Source: an uncultured Olsenella sp. (GTDB lineage: Bacteria > Actinomycetota > Coriobacteriia > Coriobacteriales > Atopobiaceae). Taken from it: a stretch of DNA of 40,959 nt. Below, piece by piece: positions 26,307 to 37,929 of this stretch (position 1 is the stretch's first letter; the number at the start of each line of letters is the position of its first letter). The notes beneath the pieces are model-generated. The model saw only the letters and a program-made list of their open reading frames with translations. It was not told the origin of the DNA and did not search any database. The position numbers were made by a program, and so were the translations under genes. The DNA lies in assembly GCA_900314575.1 (NCBI GenBank), contig OMVS01000008.1, forward strand, positions 1-40,959, in the 5' to 3' direction.

Positions 26307-27815
26307 CTAGGCCTCCTCGAAGTCCACGACCTCGACGGAGCGCTCCATCTCGGAGCCGGCGAGGCCGACGCCTCCCACGCTCATCTCGCCGCGCTGGTTG
26401 TCGAAGGGGTCCTCGCGCAGGGCGTCGTCGGGCGGCGTGAGCGGCTCGTAGAAGTCCGTGCAGGCGATCATCCGGAGCGGGTCGAGGTTGCCGAAGTAGT
26501 GGGTGCGGCGCAGCTCGTCGCCCGAGCGGTAGGCGCTCGCGCCGAACGAGCAGTCCACCCAGCGCCAGCCGTAGGGCCCGGCGTAGAACTGCGCCCAGTC
26601 GTGCGGGCGGGCGCCCTGCGGTCGCACGTAGAGGCCGCTCTGCCAGCGCGCGGGCACGCCGGCGATCCTGCAGAGGGTGATGAAGAGCAGGGACATGCAG
26701 CCGCAGTCGCCCGTGAGGGTGCGCGCCGTGGTGTCGGCGATGCTGCCGAGGGCCACGTAGGCCGGCTGGTAGTGGTACTTGACGCTGCTCGTCACGTAGT
26801 CGTAGATCGCGCGGGCGCGCGAGAGCGCGTCGCGCCGCTCGCCCACCACCCTGCGCGCGAGCGCGCGCAGGAAGGGCGTGAAGACGATGTGCGGGGCCTT
26901 CTCGCCCAGGTAGGGCGCGAGGTCCGCCGGCGCGTCCGCGGGGCCGGGGTAGGTGGGCACGCCCTGGCGCCGCCTGGAGCCCGCCTCGTCCGCGGCCTGA
27001 TAGAGGGCGACGTAGGGAACCTGGATGGTGTAGCGGTAGAGCACCTGGAAGCTCGCGCGGCCCTCCACGAGGGGAAGCTCGGCCCCCCTGCCCTCCCAGA
27101 AGACCGTCCGCTGCGCGGAGTCGACCGGCGAGACCACGCCGCCGGGCGTGGACTCGTAGAAGACCTCGACGCCGCGCTGCTCGCCGCACTCGACCGGCAG
27201 CGGGAGCCAGGCCCTGACGACGTCTTCCGGCGCCACCGGCGCCCTCGAGGCGACGGTCGCGCGCAGGGTGATGCGGCGCGCCTGCGAGCAGGTCTCGCGC
27301 ATGGAGACGAGGGTGCGGACCAGCCCCTTGGCGTCCGGGTCCCGACTCGCCTCCAGACCGGGGACCTCGCCGGCGTGGCGCTCGAGGGTCTCCAGGTAGC
27401 GCGGCAGGAAGCGGCGCTCGCCGTCTATCTCGCGCCAGTCCACCAGGCGGCGCTCCATCAGCTCGTCGAGCAGGGCGTCGGCGTCGCCCGAGGCGACCTT
27501 CAGCCTCCCCCTGAGGCCTCCCAGCACGTCCTCCCTGCTGAGGCGGTACTCCTGGCACACGCGCCTGAGCCGGTAGAGCTCCACGCGCAGCCGCGCCGCG
27601 CGCTCCGGCTCGAGGTCGCCGGCCGCGAGCTCCCCCTCGATCCTGCGCATAGCCTCGCTCGTCCGCCCGGAGCGCTCGAGGCGCTCGAGGCCGGGGTCGA
27701 GCGGCCTGGACACGAGCGCGAAGTCCTCGTTCCTGACGGACGCGCGCAGGCGCGCGTCCTTCTCGGCCGCCCACGTCGAAGACGGCGCCCCGACAGCTGA
27801 AGCCTCACCGGACAT
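26307..27815 (-). CDS. Transglutaminase-like domain protein
   Basis: 502 residues. The transglutaminase-like (papain-fold) core lies near 345-425, with an apparent intact triad: Cys371 in LTGDCGCMSLLF, His405 in RPHDWAQFY and Asp421 in WVDCSFG. Before it come a helical, Arg/Glu-rich N-terminal region (about 20-165) and a beta-rich segment (210-290; VVRAWLPLPVE, FQVLYRYTIQVPYVALY) like those preceding transglutaminase cores in bacterial hypothetical proteins. No signal peptide or membrane segment, so a cytoplasmic location is likely. It could be a protease or an amide-hydrolysing enzyme; the substrate is unknown. Start ATG 27813-27815 is chosen for its GGAGG; an earlier in-frame start lacks one. 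Confidence 0.75.
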   Translation of the reverse strand: MSGEASAVGAPSSTWAAEKDARLRASVRNEDFALVSRPLDPGLERLERSGRTSEAMRRIEGELAAGDLEPERAARLRVELYRLRRVCQEYRLSREDVLGGLRGRLKVASGDADALLDELMERRLVDWREIDGERRFLPRYLETLERHAGEVPGLEASRDPDAKGLVRTLVSMRETCSQARRITLRATVASRAPVAPEDVVRAWLPLPVECGEQRGVEVFYESTPGGVVSPVDSAQRTVFWEGRGAELPLVEGRASFQVLYRYTIQVPYVALYQAADEAGSRRRQGVPTYPGPADAPADLAPYLGEKAPHIVFTPFLRALARRVVGERRDALSRARAIYDYVTSSVKYHYQPAYVALGSIADTTARTLTGDCGCMSLLFITLCRIAGVPARWQSGLYVRPQGARPHDWAQFYAGPYGWRWVDCSFGASAYRSGDELRRTHYFGNLDPLRMIACTDFYEPLTPPDDALREDPFDNQRGEMSVGGVGLAGSEMERSVEVVDFEEA

Positions 27816-27990
27816 GGCTGAACCTCCGTTCCGTCGCGGGATGCGGAAATGATAGCCAAGCCCGCCGCCGGCGGGCCGCCGTGGTCCGTGGACGCTGCGC
27901 AAACCTCCGTAAACTGCCCCGCCCGGCCGTGCGGGCGAACTATCATGGACGGGTACCCTCCGGCAACGACAACCAGGGAAGGCAGGACCT

Positions 27991-31784: not shown

Positions 31785-31857
31785 CCCATGCGGCGGGCCG
31801 CCGCGCGGGGCGCGCACGGCTAGAATTGGTCGCGTACCCCAGACGCGAAGGAGGAAC

Positions 31858-34011
31858 GTGTCCGACGTAGACCCCACCGAGGGCGGGCCCGGCGGCCGGG
31901 ACCGCATCCAAGAGATCGTCGACTCCGTCCTCGAGGCCATGGGCGACAAGGGCGACGCGAGCATCACGACGCGCACCTACTCCGACGAGCCGATCCTGCG
32001 CACCGGCGCCGACTTCAGGCGCGAGCGGGAGTCGCGCGACGCCAGCCGCCCGAACGACGCCCCCTCCAAACGCACCCCGACCCAGGCGGACGGGACCCCG
32101 CCCCGCACGGGCGAGGCCCAGGTGCGCCGGAGCCGGAGCAGCCAGGAGTACCAGGAGATCATCCGCCGGTCCTACGAGCGCTCGACCGCCCGCGCGGAAC
32201 GCGCCTGGAGGCCGGCGACGATCGGCACCTCCTCCCTGCCGGAGACGCTCCGGCAGCTGCGCGCGCTCGAGCACGAGCTGCCCCACTCCGGCAGGAGGCA
32301 GGAGGCGGAGCTGTTCGTGCGCCAGGCCCGCCTCGCCGAGGACTACGCGGACGACACGTCCTTCTCCGCCATCTACGTCTACCAGCAGCTGCCGACCTAC
32401 CGAGCGCTGGGCAACCTCGAGCTGCGCGGCTACTTCGCCTGGAGGGCCGAGTGGAGGCGTGGCGTGGCGTCCACGATCCCCTATGCCTACGCGCGCCTCC
32501 TCGCCGCCGAGCTCGTCAACGGAGTCGGGTGCGGGCGCCGGCGGGACGAGAAGGACCCGGGGTCCGAGGGCCCCGCCGAGCCCGAGGGGAGCGGGCGGCC
32601 CCGCAAGGACGCCGCGCCCGCCTGGGGCGACGCCTGCGCGCGCGAGCTCCTGCGCCTCAGGGACGCCGCCCCCGAGCTCTGCACGTCCGGCATGGGCCCC
32701 AACCTCGTCCGCGAGCTCTCGGGTTGGCTCGACGACTGCGTCGTCTGCCTCGGCGCGGACCCCGCGCTCGCGGTCTCCGAGTGGGAGCGGACCTTCGGCG
32801 CGGCGGTCAGGGTGCTGCGCATCGCCGAGGGACGCGCCGTCTCGGACGCGGCGGCGGCGCGCAGGGCCGCGCGGACCGCCGCCGGGCCGGGAGGAGCCCT
32901 CGCCCGGGAGGACGCCCGGAGGGAGTACGCCCGCGTCACGGGCGACGCGCGCTCGGCCTTCGCGCGCGACCCGATGGAATGCATCGCCGACAAGGACGCG
33001 CCGATCACGGACGAGCAGGTCTTCCGCGCCATGCTCGACCTCTCCTCGCGCAAGCCCAACCACTCGCCCTTCTTCCGCACGCACCCCGAGGCCGCCGCGC
33101 GGGTCTCCGCCAGGGTCTTCGCCGCCATGTGCGAGCACTGCGCGCGAAGGCGCAAGGTCGGCTTCGTCGACGGCCTCTTCGGTCCCCCCTGGGCCACGGG
33201 CTACACCCCGTTCCGCGGCCTCCCCTACGTCGAGCCCGAGGGGCTGCCGGACGTCGAGGTGCGCCTCAGCGACGTCGAGCTCGTCATCCGCTCCGAGGGA
33301 CGCCTCAGCGAGCTCAAGGGCTACGACCGCTGCGTCCCCTCGCGCGAGCTCGCGCTCGTCCTGCACGAGATCGACCGCCAGATGAGGGCCGCCTGGCAGG
33401 AGGGCCACCAGCTCAAGCCGAAGGGCCTGCCCAAGTACCTCGTGCGCATCGTCGAGGGGGCCGCGAGCGAGGTCTGGCAGGAGGAGCAGGAGCGCGAGGC
33501 CCGCCGCGTGAGGATCGACTTCTCCCAGCTGGCGCACATCCGCTCCGCCGCCGCGACGACCCGCGAGGCGCTCCTCGTGGACGAGGAGCGCGAGGGCTAC
33601 GTGCCGCCCTCGGAGGCCACGGCCGACGAGGCCCCCCAGCCGGGGACCGCGCCCTCGGGCGCCTCGCCGGCCGCGGGCGTCGTCGCACCAGCAGGCCCCA
33701 CGCAGGCAGCCAGCGACACCGCTCCCGCGCAGGCCGCCGGCGGCGACGTGCCCGAGGGCGGCGCGGGGGAGGAGGGCGCGGAGACGCTCGGCCTCACGCC
33801 GCTCGAACTCGCCGCGCTCGAGCGGATCCTCGACGCCAGGCCGATCGACGACCTCCTCGGCCCGGGCGCGCCCCTGCCCTCCGTCCTCGTCGACTCCATC
33901 AACGAGAAGCTCTTCGACGAGGTCGGCGATGCCGTCGTCGAGGAGACCGACGACGGCTGGCGAGCCGTCGAGGACTACGCGGACGACGTGCGGGAGCTCA
34001 TCGGGGCCTAG
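31858..34011 (+). CDS. TerB-N/TerB-C domain protein
   Basis: 717 residues, GTG start behind AAGGAGG. Residues about 145-320 match the TerB-N pattern: AELFVRQARLAEDYADDTSF, LPTYRALGNLELRGYFAWR, PYAYARLLAAELVNGVG. Residues about 549-715 match TerB-C: RRVRIDFSQLAHIR, TREALLVDEE, then LTPLELAALERILD, DSINEKLFDEVGD and VEDYADDVREL. The N-terminal 110 residues are charged and disordered, and an Ala/Pro linker (585-640) interrupts TerB-C. A classical acidic TerB core between the two is not obvious to me. Such proteins are known beside SF2 helicases and P-loop ATPases, as here, in predicted DNA-processing or stress systems. Expressed separately from the next gene, which has its own promoter 145 bp downstream. 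Confidence 0.75.
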   Translation: MSDVDPTEGGPGGRDRIQEIVDSVLEAMGDKGDASITTRTYSDEPILRTGADFRRERESRDASRPNDAPSKRTPTQADGTPPRTGEAQVRRSRSSQEYQEIIRRSYERSTARAERAWRPATIGTSSLPETLRQLRALEHELPHSGRRQEAELFVRQARLAEDYADDTSFSAIYVYQQLPTYRALGNLELRGYFAWRAEWRRGVASTIPYAYARLLAAELVNGVGCGRRRDEKDPGSEGPAEPEGSGRPRKDAAPAWGDACARELLRLRDAAPELCTSGMGPNLVRELSGWLDDCVVCLGADPALAVSEWERTFGAAVRVLRIAEGRAVSDAAAARRAARTAAGPGGALAREDARREYARVTGDARSAFARDPMECIADKDAPITDEQVFRAMLDLSSRKPNHSPFFRTHPEAAARVSARVFAAMCEHCARRRKVGFVDGLFGPPWATGYTPFRGLPYVEPEGLPDVEVRLSDVELVIRSEGRLSELKGYDRCVPSRELALVLHEIDRQMRAAWQEGHQLKPKGLPKYLVRIVEGAASEVWQEEQEREARRVRIDFSQLAHIRSAAATTREALLVDEEREGYVPPSEATADEAPQPGTAPSGASPAAGVVAPAGPTQAASDTAPAQAAGGDVPEGGAGEEGAETLGLTPLELAALERILDARPIDDLLGPGAPLPSVLVDSINEKLFDEVGDAVVEETDDGWRAVEDYADDVRELIGA

Positions 34012-34056: not shown

Positions 34057-34068
34057 GAACAACTGTTC
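34057..34068. promoter_or_regulatory. LexA (SOS) box-like palindrome
   Basis: GAACAACTGTTC: the GAAC-N4-GTTC core of Gram-positive LexA sites, perfect in both half-sites. It overlaps the -35 region of the promoter for the ATPase-helicase pair. Regulation by LexA is inferred, because no lexA gene is in the window. Confidence 0.6.
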
Positions 34069-34094
34069 CCCTCCCCCGTCCTGTAGTGTACAAT
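34066..34094 (+). promoter_or_regulatory. Promoter of the ATPase-helicase unit
   Basis: A good -10 element, TACAAT (34089-34094), 17 bp after a weak -35, TTCCCC (34066-34071), in an A+T-richer gap between the TerB-N gene and the ATPase gene. Confidence 0.55.
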
Positions 34095-34156: not shown

Positions 34157-35509
34157 ATGTCAGCAGCCACGGGCAACAAGCGCGTCCCCAAGCGCATCGC
34201 GTCGGTCATCGTCAACTCGCTCAAGGGCGGTGTCGTGCCGCGCGTGGGCCTGCCCTACATCACCGTGGGCCGCGAGCGCGAGATAGGCGCCCTCCTGCAC
34301 GACCTCGACCTCGTGGCGGACGGCGGGGCGAGCTTCCGCTTCCTCGTCGGCAGGTACGGCAGCGGCAAGAGCTTCCTGCTCCAGACCATCCGCAACCACG
34401 CCATGGGCAAGGACTTCGTCGTCTGCGACGCGGACCTCTCGCCCGAGCGGCGCCTGCAGGGCGGCTCCGGCCAGGGCCTCGCCACCTACCGCGAGCTCGT
34501 CCGCAACCTCTCGACCAAGACCCGTCCCGAGGGCGGCGCCCTGAACCTCATCCTCGACCGCTGGATCTCCAACGTGGAGGGCCAGGTCACCGTGGGGGAG
34601 GGCCTCCACCCCGAGGACGACGGCTTCGCCGAGGCCGTCGAGCGCAAGATCCTCGAGTGCGTCCGCTCGCTCGAGGAGCTCGTCCACGGCTACGACTTCG
34701 CGCGCCTCCTCACCCGCTACTGGCGCGCCCACCTCGAGGGCGATGACGAGACCAAGTCCCTCGTCACCAAGTGGTTCAGGGGCGAGTACCGCACCAAGAG
34801 CGAGGCTAGGCGCGAGCTGGGCGTCAACATCGTGATCGGCGACGACGACTGGTACGACTACCTCAAGATCTTCGCCGCGTTCTTCCGCGGCGCCGGCTAC
34901 AAGGGGCTCATCGTCCTCATCGACGAGCTGGTCAACCTGTACAAGATCCCCAACGCCATCAGCCGCCAGTACAACTACGAGAAGATCCTCACGATGTACA
35001 ACGACACCCTGCAGGGCAAGGCCCACTACCTGGGCATCATCATGGGCGGCACGCCCCAGTCGATCGAGGACCGCCGCCGCGGGCTCTACTCCTACGAGGC
35101 CCTGCGCTCCCGCCTCACGCAGGGGCGCTTCGCGTCCGACGGCCTCGTCGACCTGCTCGCCCCGGTGATCCACCTGCAGCCCCTGACCTACGAGGAGCTC
35201 CTCGTCCTCACGGAGAAGCTCGCGGACATCCACGCCGGACTCTTCGGCTACCAGCGGACCATCACCGAGGACGAGCTCGTCCAGTTCCTGCAGGCCGAGT
35301 ACGGCCGCGTCGGCGCGGACACCCACCTCACGCCCCGCGAGGTCATCAGGGACTTCGTGGAGATGCTCGACATCCTCTCGCAGAACCCCAAGCTCTCCCC
35401 CGCCGACCTCCTCAAGGACCAGCTCCTCTCAGGCCCCGTGGCCTCCCCCGCCTCCGTCGCGGACGGCTCGAGCGCGCGCGAGGACGACTTCACCGAGTTC
35501 GAGATCTAG
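34157..35509 (+). CDS. BrxC/BrxD-like P-loop ATPase (DUF2791 type)
   Basis: 450 residues. Walker A is GRYGSGKS (65-72) and Walker B is LIVLIDELVNLY (about 251-262); IIMGGTPQ follows as a sensor-like strand. YRELVRNLSTK, YDFARLLTRYW and LTPREVIRDFVEMLDIL are typical of the P-loop family that includes the BREX ATPases BrxC and BrxD. BrxD is a smaller ATPase found with a helicase, BrxHI, in some BREX types. No PglX, PglZ, BrxA or BrxB genes are present, so this is not a BREX locus; it fits the TerB-ATPase-helicase cassette. Start ATG follows GAGGGA. Eight bases separate it from the helicase, so the two are one operon. DNA-loading of the helicase is an inference. Confidence 0.8.
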   Translation: MSAATGNKRVPKRIASVIVNSLKGGVVPRVGLPYITVGREREIGALLHDLDLVADGGASFRFLVGRYGSGKSFLLQTIRNHAMGKDFVVCDADLSPERRLQGGSGQGLATYRELVRNLSTKTRPEGGALNLILDRWISNVEGQVTVGEGLHPEDDGFAEAVERKILECVRSLEELVHGYDFARLLTRYWRAHLEGDDETKSLVTKWFRGEYRTKSEARRELGVNIVIGDDDWYDYLKIFAAFFRGAGYKGLIVLIDELVNLYKIPNAISRQYNYEKILTMYNDTLQGKAHYLGIIMGGTPQSIEDRRRGLYSYEALRSRLTQGRFASDGLVDLLAPVIHLQPLTYEELLVLTEKLADIHAGLFGYQRTITEDELVQFLQAEYGRVGADTHLTPREVIRDFVEMLDILSQNPKLSPADLLKDQLLSGPVASPASVADGSSAREDDFTEFEI

Positions 35510-35517
35510 GCCGCACC

Positions 35518-37929
35518 ATGGGCGCCTTCGACCGCTACGCACCCTTCGTCCAGGACTTCATCTACGACCACAACTGGGAGAGCCTCCGTTCCGTGCAGGT
35601 CGCGGCCGCCGACGCCATCTTCAACACGGACGACAACGTCCTTCTCACCGCGTCGACCGCCTCGGGCAAGACCGAGGCGGCCTTCTTCCCCATCCTCACC
35701 GAGCTCTGGGAGGACCCTCCCGCCTCGGTCGGCTGCATCTACATCGGCCCCCTGAAGGCGCTGATTAACGACCAGTTCCTCCGCCTGGAGGACCTCTGCG
35801 CCGAGGGCGACATACCCGTGTGGCACTGGCACGGGGACGTCTCGCAGTCCCACAAGGCCAAGATGCTCAAGCACCCCTCCGGGATCCTCCAGATAACCCC
35901 GGAGTCGCTCGAATCCATGCTCCTGCACCGCCACGCCGCGATCGGGAGGATCTTCTCGGACCTGCGCTTCGTCGTGATCGACGAGGTCCACTCCCTGCTC
36001 CGTGGGGACCGCGGGGACCAGACCCTATGCTGCATCGAGCGGCTCTCGCGCCTCGCGGGCGTGAACCCCAGGAGGATCGGCCTCTCTGCCACCATCGGCG
36101 ACCCCACCGCCGCCGGCGCCTACCTCTCCGCCGGCACGGGGCGGCGCTGCGTCATCCCCAGGCTCGACGCCCCCAAGGATCGCTGGCGCATCTCGATGGA
36201 GCACTTCTACGTCACCGGCCCCCAGGCGCCCGAGCGCGGCGAGGACGGCCTCGGACGAGGGGAGGCCGCAAGCGAGCCCTCCTACGAGGTACCGCTCGCC
36301 GAGCCCAGCTGCGAGCGCGTGCCCCCGAGGGCCGAGCGGGCGCAGGACGCGCCCGAGGTGTCGGGAGGCGCAGAGCCCGAGCAGCCCGACCACGAGGAGC
36401 CCAGCGACAGCGCGCCCGTCTTCGCGGACCCGGGGCTCGCCTACGTGTTCGAGCACACCAAGGGCCACAAGTGCCTCGTCTTCGCCAACTCCCGAGAGGA
36501 GGCGGAGTCCGTCACGACCTCGCTCAGGCAGTACTGCGAGGCCTGCGGCGAGCCCGACCGCTTCCTGATCCACCACGGCAACCTCTCGGCCAGCCTGAGG
36601 GAGACCGCCGAGGACCTCATGCGCGAGGAGGACAGCTGCCTCACCACGGTCACCACCTCCACGCTCGAGCTAGGCATAGACATCGGCCGCCTCGAGCGCG
36701 CCTTCCAGATCGACGCCCCCTTCACCGTGAGCTCCTTCCTGCAGCGCATGGGCCGCACCGGCAGGCGTGGCCAGCCCCCCGAGATGTGGTTCCTCATGCG
36801 CGAGGAGGAGCCGGAGGCCCGGGCGCTCCTCCCGGAGACGATCCCCTGGAAGCTCCTGCAGGGCATCGCCCTCGTCCAGCTCTACGTCGAGGACCGCTGG
36901 GTCGAGCCGCCCCGCCTGGACGGGCTGCCCTTCAGCCTGCTCTACCACCAGACCATGGCGACGCTCGCCTCGTCCGGCGAGCTCACGGCCCCAGAGCTCG
37001 CGAGGCGCGTGCTCACCCTCACGCCCTTCCACCGCATCTCCCTGGACGACTACGCCGTTCTCCTGCGCCACCTGCTGGAGATCGACCACCTCGAGCGCAC
37101 CGACGAGGGCGGCCTCGTCGTCGGCCTCGCCGGCGAGCGCGTCTGCAACGACTTCCGCTTCTACGCCGTCTTCGCGGAGGACGAGGAGTACACCGTCCGC
37201 AGCGAGTCCGAGGAGCTCGGCACGATCGTGCAGCCTCCCCCGGTGGGCGAGCGCATCGCGATAGCGGGCGCCGTCTGGGTCATCGAGGAGATCGACTACA
37301 AGCGCCACCTCATCCAGTGCACCAAGGTCAAGGGGAAGGTACCCGCCTACTTCGGCATGGTCGCGGGAGACATAGACACCCACGTTCTCGAGCGCATGCG
37401 CGGCGTCCTCGAGGAGGGGCGCAGCTACCCCTACCTCAAGCGCAACGCCCGCGCCCGGCTCGCCCAGGCGCGCCACGTCGCCTCGTTCGCCCGCGTGGCG
37501 AGCGAGCCGCTCGTCTGCCTCGGCGGCACCATGTGGTGCCTCTTCCCCTGGCTCGGCAGCTACGCCTTCCTCGCCCTCGAGCGCTTCCTCAAGATCCGGT
37601 GCGGCGAGCGCCTCGGCCTCAAGGGGCTCGACTCGTCGCGCCCCTACTTCATGCAGTTCGTGATGAGGGCGGACGCCCGCACCTTCTACCGCGTCGTGAA
37701 GGAGGAGGCCGCCAAGCCGCTCGACCCGATGGAGCTGCTCTACCCCACCGAGGTCCCCTACTTCGACAAGTACGACGAGTTCGTGCCCGAGGAGCTCGTG
37801 CGCAAGGGCTTCGCCCTCGGCGTGCTCGACGTGGAGGGCATGCTCGAGCGCGTGCGCTCCTGGCCGGACGAGCCGGCCGCGGCCAGGCTCGCGACCCGCG
37901 CCCAGCTCCCGCCACAGTCCCGCGGGTAG
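35518..37929 (+). CDS. DEVH-box superfamily 2 helicase (BrxHI/Lhr-like)
   Basis: 803 residues. Motor motifs in order: TASGKT (47-52, motif I), IGPLKALINDQ (Ia), ITPESLE, VVIDEVHSLLRGDRGDQ (DEVH at 155-158, motif II), LSATIGDP (III), VFANSREEAESV (IV), TSTLELGIDIG (V) and QRMGRTGRRGQ (409-418, VI). The RGDRGDQ after motif II is typical of Lhr-type and BREX-associated helicases. An acidic Pro/Glu insert (about 240-300) separates the two RecA lobes. The C-terminal 370 residues include a winged-helix-like part and a domain I do not recognise. It should unwind or translocate on nucleic acid. Cotranscribed with the ATPase; partner of the TerB-N protein by context. Confidence 0.87.
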   Translation: MGAFDRYAPFVQDFIYDHNWESLRSVQVAAADAIFNTDDNVLLTASTASGKTEAAFFPILTELWEDPPASVGCIYIGPLKALINDQFLRLEDLCAEGDIPVWHWHGDVSQSHKAKMLKHPSGILQITPESLESMLLHRHAAIGRIFSDLRFVVIDEVHSLLRGDRGDQTLCCIERLSRLAGVNPRRIGLSATIGDPTAAGAYLSAGTGRRCVIPRLDAPKDRWRISMEHFYVTGPQAPERGEDGLGRGEAASEPSYEVPLAEPSCERVPPRAERAQDAPEVSGGAEPEQPDHEEPSDSAPVFADPGLAYVFEHTKGHKCLVFANSREEAESVTTSLRQYCEACGEPDRFLIHHGNLSASLRETAEDLMREEDSCLTTVTTSTLELGIDIGRLERAFQIDAPFTVSSFLQRMGRTGRRGQPPEMWFLMREEEPEARALLPETIPWKLLQGIALVQLYVEDRWVEPPRLDGLPFSLLYHQTMATLASSGELTAPELARRVLTLTPFHRISLDDYAVLLRHLLEIDHLERTDEGGLVVGLAGERVCNDFRFYAVFAEDEEYTVRSESEELGTIVQPPPVGERIAIAGAVWVIEEIDYKRHLIQCTKVKGKVPAYFGMVAGDIDTHVLERMRGVLEEGRSYPYLKRNARARLAQARHVASFARVASEPLVCLGGTMWCLFPWLGSYAFLALERFLKIRCGERLGLKGLDSSRPYFMQFVMRADARTFYRVVKEEAAKPLDPMELLYPTEVPYFDKYDEFVPEELVRKGFALGVLDVEGMLERVRSWPDEPAAARLATRAQLPPQSRG

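Follow-up and report, generated by a model that had tools for sequence, protein, structure and literature searches.

The 40,959-nucleotide contig OMVS01000008.1 of an uncultured Olsenella sp. (assembly GCA_900314575.1), referred to below as the window, was analysed with respect to a 12-bp palindrome that precedes sngB and sngC, the motor genes of a three-gene cassette. Judged by its protein family matches the cassette is a Shango system, in which a TerB-like protein (SngA), a BrxC/D-like ATPase (SngB) and a superfamily 2 (SF2) helicase (SngC) are encoded together. The palindrome can be regarded with near certainty as a binding site of LexA, the repressor of the SOS (DNA-damage) regulon. The features of the locus are as follows.

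31821..31826, + strand: TAGAAT, possible -10 element of a separate sngA promoter (weak, consensus match only)
31858..34011, + strand: sngA, TerB_N / TerB_C protein of 717 amino acids (aa), GTG start (PADLOC SngA 5e-49; Pfam TerB_C 2.9e-17, TerB_N 1.5e-12)
34057..34068, + strand: predicted LexA operator (SOS box) GAACAACTGTTC (18.68 bits with the LexA matrix of the same genome; conserved in orthologues)
34089..34094, + strand: TACAAT, predicted -10 element of the sngBC promoter (from sequence)
34157..35509, + strand: sngB, BrxC/BrxD-like AAA ATPase, 450 aa (PADLOC SngB 1.7e-188; Pfam BrxC_BrxD 4.4e-168)
35518..37929, + strand: sngC, SF2 DEAD/DEAH helicase related to Lhr / MrfA, 803 aa (PADLOC SngC 3.3e-271)

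An earlier note on this DNA had described a perfect GAAC-N4-GTTC palindrome, and GAACAACTGTTC was found exactly at 34057-34068. The site is intergenic, lying in the 145-bp gap between the sngA stop (34011) and the sngB ATG (34157), 88-100 bp upstream of the latter. The palindrome had further been placed across the -35 element, 17 bp before TACAAT. This held in part, as the 3' end of the box overlaps the implied -35 (34066-34071, 17 bp upstream of the -10), but the spacing between box and TACAAT is 20 bp and the implied -35, TTCCCC, is weak. The box overlaps or adjoins the promoter of its putative target genes, as operators of the SOS regulon do.

Based on its SOS promoters, GAAC-N4-GTTC is the LexA motif of this genome. 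Perfect boxes were found at the promoters of recA, dinB, uvrA, ruvC and a DNA-repair radical-SAM gene, that of recA sitting between TTGACA and the -10, and three one-mismatch boxes were found at lexA itself (GTACAGAAGTTC, GAACCTCTGTAC and GAACATTCGTTT). A GTACN4GTTC box lies upstream of a Y-family-polymerase-like gene. A matrix was built from 8 boxes of recA, lexA, dinB, uvrA, ruvC and the radical-SAM gene, with the window site left out. With this matrix GAACAACTGTTC scored 18.68 bits, within the range of the training sites (13.8-21.9 bits), while no other place in the 41-kb window exceeded 10.25 bits. The motif derived from the genome's own SOS promoters, a check that the earlier note had proposed, is thus the same as the box. 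Random sequence of the same composition yields roughly 0.7 such matches per Mb, corresponding to an expectation of about 1e-4 in the 145-bp gap. Perfect GAACN4GTTC sites number 11 in the whole 2.13-Mb genome. The only other perfect match within the window, at 27820-27831, was rejected as a further operator; it is probably a chance match since it scores 8.9 bits and holds the GGAGG ribosome-binding site of a reverse-strand gene (26310-27815).

Some phage repressors bind sites that overlap the LexA motif, and the box might accordingly be the site of a different repressor, phage-type or cassette-specific, whose recognition sequence resembles that of LexA. The genome however encodes only one protein with a LexA-type DNA-binding domain (LexA_DNA_bind, at C67:14602), and no regulator gene was found in or beside the cassette. 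A second LexA-type or cassette-specific regulator was rejected on these grounds. Furthermore, the site fits the lexA/recA/uvrA/ruvC/dinB matrix, variant half-sites from the lexA promoter included, and control by a repressor other than LexA is considered very unlikely. The LexA sequence, read by eye, holds an Ala-Gly cleavage site and a GQSM / TVKTF catalytic region with the Ser/Lys motifs, and RecA is encoded at C67:4549. A predicted cleavable LexA and RecA are therefore both present in the genome.

LexA-like boxes were also observed elsewhere in the genome. Among the top boxes in the stretches read was GAACAAATGTAC (C67:19469, L006 19469; 21.7 bits), which has no clear same-strand gene start downstream. 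Two boxes (C53:56316 and 56347; L009 3017 and 3048) precede a 142-aa gene (MGGYPQEHKGYTLLEVDDGDE...) that has no family match and is possibly a new SOS gene. Perfect boxes at C96:5808 (L012 3009) and C85:30021 (L010 3022) each lie roughly 90-110 bp upstream of a gene start; the two genes (346 and 369 aa) are similar to each other and have no Pfam match.

To evaluate conservation of the box, SngB was sought in 84,980 genomes and additionally at the level of whole genomes for the family, the class and the phylum, after which the regulatory stretches were scanned. GAAC-N4-GTTC with at most one mismatch was found at 36 of 79 loci, as compared to 4-17 of 79 for 11 permutations of the same letters. 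A class-wide matrix was then constructed from Coriobacteriia lexA promoters together with the genome's own recA, dinB, uvrA and ruvC boxes and contained no Shango sequence. With this matrix 54 out of 58 Coriobacteriia loci exceeded 11.3 bits in the regulatory stretch of the first gene, a threshold reached at 5e-5 per control base, for which roughly 0.9 of the 58 loci would be expected. Two additional loci, L184 and L185, have strong boxes just beyond the scanned stretch. The variant half-sites GTAC and GTTT, which occur in many Shango boxes, are also present in the lexA promoters of nine related Coriobacteriia. When the columns of the matrix were permuted, an average of 0.44 of 58 loci passed, at a stricter threshold which only 4 of 58 pass with the true matrix. 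This test is weak on account of the control flanks, which hold probable boxes of neighbouring genes, and the conservation argument is therefore carried by the letter-permutation control and the 5e-5 expectation. The conservation upstream of orthologous cassettes that the earlier note had asked about was in this way observed at most of the Coriobacteriia loci. In L183 (G303), a Shango locus from another family of the order, three tandem LexA-like boxes with 16 bp spacing lie some 805-840 bp upstream of sngB.

The position of the box tracks the structure of the operon and moves with its start. At loci with a gap between sngA and sngB, the box lies before sngB, as in the window and in L018, L019, L040, L042-L044, L047, L049, L051, L053, L055, L057, L084 and L191-L193, and at such split loci no box was found at sngA wherever the upstream stretch could be scanned. 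The box scan likewise gave none upstream of sngA in the window. Where sngA and sngB overlap, the box is instead found before sngA (e.g. L016, L017, L020-L023, L025-L032). The proposal that the TerB-N gene is expressed separately from the motor genes is consequently consistent with the window and the split loci but is not general. When sngC is separated from sngB it has a box of its own at -35 to -40 (L199, L203). In several Atopobiaceae-type genomes sngC is detached altogether, and in five genomes where it lies outside the flanks of the sngAB locus a box was found at -41 to -48 (L197, L198, L200-L202).

A -10 element (one mismatch at most) was present no more than 30 bp from the box in 54 of the 65 cases, as compared to 5.6% of random 30-mers. 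TACAAT follows the box by 18 bp in L019 and L040. In at least 7 Ruminococcus loci the box continues into a TTGACA -35, and TATAAT follows about 17 bp later; in Limosilactobacillus the box comes immediately downstream of the -10. Directly after sngC, L022 has in addition a perfect LexA box (GAACAAATGTTC or similar; 9807), which precedes an open reading frame (ORF) without a Pfam match. Such a box is also present, at about +3800 from sngB, in L021, L023, L025-L028 and L032. The ORF, up to 265 aa in length (L022), is probably another gene of the SOS regulon that is linked to the cassette in the Tractidigestivibacter/Olsenella group.

As the palindrome spans only 12 bp and a perfect match occurs elsewhere in the window, at 27820, a chance origin was considered. 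The expectation of about 1e-4 for the gap speaks against it, as does the way in which the box recurs over promoters, both in dozens of orthologues and for detached sngC. A chance palindrome was rejected based on the letter-permutation control, the matrix score and the conservation, and its likelihood is considered negligible.

Several observations weigh against LexA control, or against extending it to the system at large. The -35 hexamer of the window is poor, and in one genus (four genomes, L205-L208) no box accompanies the detached sngC. Among 30 Ruminococcus/Oscillospiraceae loci about 10-13 have a box or near-box, in a wider Bacillota sample only about 5 of 19 loci have a convincing box close to sngA, and of 14 plasmid loci of other lineages only one, on one of two Paenibacillus plasmids, has a box. 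In Limosilactobacillus, a box or near-box was present in 3-5 of 5 loci. Conservation of the operator at orthologues is thus seen in Coriobacteriia and is patchy in Bacillota. On account of this patchiness and of the single box on other-lineage plasmids, SOS control is, as far as the loci compared indicate, a feature of lineages and not of Shango in general. In L205-L208, sngC follows other genes, which in L205 and L208 include a small phosphatase-like ORF.

The possibility that every Shango lineage carries the LexA motif of its own host was also examined. No clade-specific LexA motif was found at the proteobacterial and haloarchaeal plasmid Shango loci scanned, where CTGT-N8-ACAG and GTTC-N7-GTTC did not occur beyond one-mismatch strays, and this possibility was not supported. 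In the SngB tree a Gram-positive clade is separated from a proteobacterial and archaeal clade with full support, though on long branches.

Taken as a whole, the results are very probably best explained by the palindrome acting as a LexA operator on the sngBC promoter that is derepressed through RecA-dependent cleavage of LexA, and Shango appears in these bacteria to be part of the DNA-damage response. From the sequence we infer LexA binding, induction upon damage, a basal supply of SngA and a purpose in arming the system. In the undamaged cell, the genome's single LexA, bound to the box, would block the sngBC promoter. RecA filaments formed on single-stranded DNA, originating either from chromosomal damage or from phage and plasmid replication intermediates, would stimulate self-cleavage of LexA, upon which the SngB ATPase and SngC helicase would be made and join SngA. 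As SngA would already be present, expressed from its own box-less promoter, derepression of sngBC would complete the Shango complex. This would arm a DNA-directed defence or genome-integrity machine at the time that abnormal DNA is sensed.

The surroundings of the cassette are those of a housekeeping locus, with purL upstream and a U32 peptidase gene downstream and no defence genes recognised among the neighbours. The purL gene adjoins the cassette in the closest relatives that have purL in range (L016-L019, L030) and lies beside it in opposite orientation in L031 and L033-L039. SngB was found in 106 of 140 genomes of the family, nearly always as a single copy, and is rare in the rest of the phylum and patchy in Bacillota (23/398); no match to SngB was found in phage records. 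Based on this distribution and on its neighbours, the cassette is near-core in the family and does not reside in a mobile defence island. The nearest solved relatives of SngC are Lhr (5v9x, 7lhl) and MrfA/YprA (6znp), and SngC also matches, below cut-off, the NCBIfam model of a ligase-associated DNA-damage-response helicase.

This common purL neighbourhood, the single-copy distribution, the relatives of SngC and the predicted co-regulation with recA, uvrA, ruvC and dinB all favour a cassette that is mainly a DNA-repair or genome-integrity machine of the SOS regulon, its anti-phage use, with Shango on plasmids and in defence islands elsewhere, being secondary or derived. We regard this as possible, though doubtful. 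All three proteins give strong matches to the PADLOC Shango models, Shango of P. aeruginosa blocks phages (PMC10250203), and in a helicase phylogeny SngC groups with BrxHI, DruE and DpdJ in a clade defined by antiphage functions (PMC12278908). In addition, SngA diverges much faster than its partners, as an arms race might produce. An anti-phage role of the cassette in Coriobacteriales may be proposed by likeness to the P. aeruginosa system. A stronger version, in which the Coriobacteriales cassette is a core SOS genome-integrity machine held by LexA even where its genes are scattered across the chromosome, and the mobile Shango systems found elsewhere are offshoots that lost LexA control, is considered unlikely.

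As judged by sequence identity, SngA evolves far faster than SngB and SngC: relatives that share 61-84% identity in the latter two share only 23-43% in SngA. The AlphaFold model of SngA (mean predicted local distance difference test score, pLDDT, of 80) matched nothing in the PDB at E <= 0.001, and no catalytic role is therefore proposed for the protein. Membership of BREX was rejected, as the NCBIfam BrxD score of 183 falls short of the cut-off of 350; neither a PglX/BrxX methyltransferase nor PglZ was found among the neighbouring genes scanned.

Retention of the LexA operator throughout the class would imply that what Shango does is of use while RecA filaments are building up, so that damaged or replicating DNA would be the state that matters. 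It would furthermore exemplify a defence system placed under the global damage repressor of the host rather than under a regulator of its own and, for common gut bacteria such as Olsenella and Collinsella, blur the boundary that separates DNA repair from defence against phages.

Compared with known systems, the cassette shares its three protein families, their order and strong PADLOC matches with the described Shango (PMC10250203 and the E. coli system cited there). SngB is however only about 40-45% identical to that of proteobacterial plasmid Shango and falls into a separate clade, and the LexA box present here was not seen at the proteobacterial loci sampled. Residence in a defence island or mobile element, a usual though not strictly defining trait of Shango, is replaced here by a near-core chromosomal position by purL. 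SngC is related to the repair helicases Lhr and MrfA/YprA in its SF2 core, to which the likeness is limited, and works with SngA and SngB. With respect to regulation, the operator is the GAAC-N4-GTTC of the Gram-positive SOS regulon, placed over the core promoter and common with the genome's own recA, lexA, uvrA, ruvC and dinB, the difference being that an anti-phage system is included. DNA-damage-linked or WYL regulators likewise hold other defence genes repressed, namely CapW and CapH-CapP on CBASS, with single-stranded DNA as the signal of CapH-CapP, and BrxR on BREX (PMC10693628). These regulators are encoded with their systems, whereas here the host's global LexA is apparently used without a dedicated regulator. 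A literature search, which did not extend to subscription papers or to most preprints, turned up no description of Shango under the control of LexA. Shango and the SOS regulon are each known; what is new is their union, and its retention across the class despite rearranged genes.
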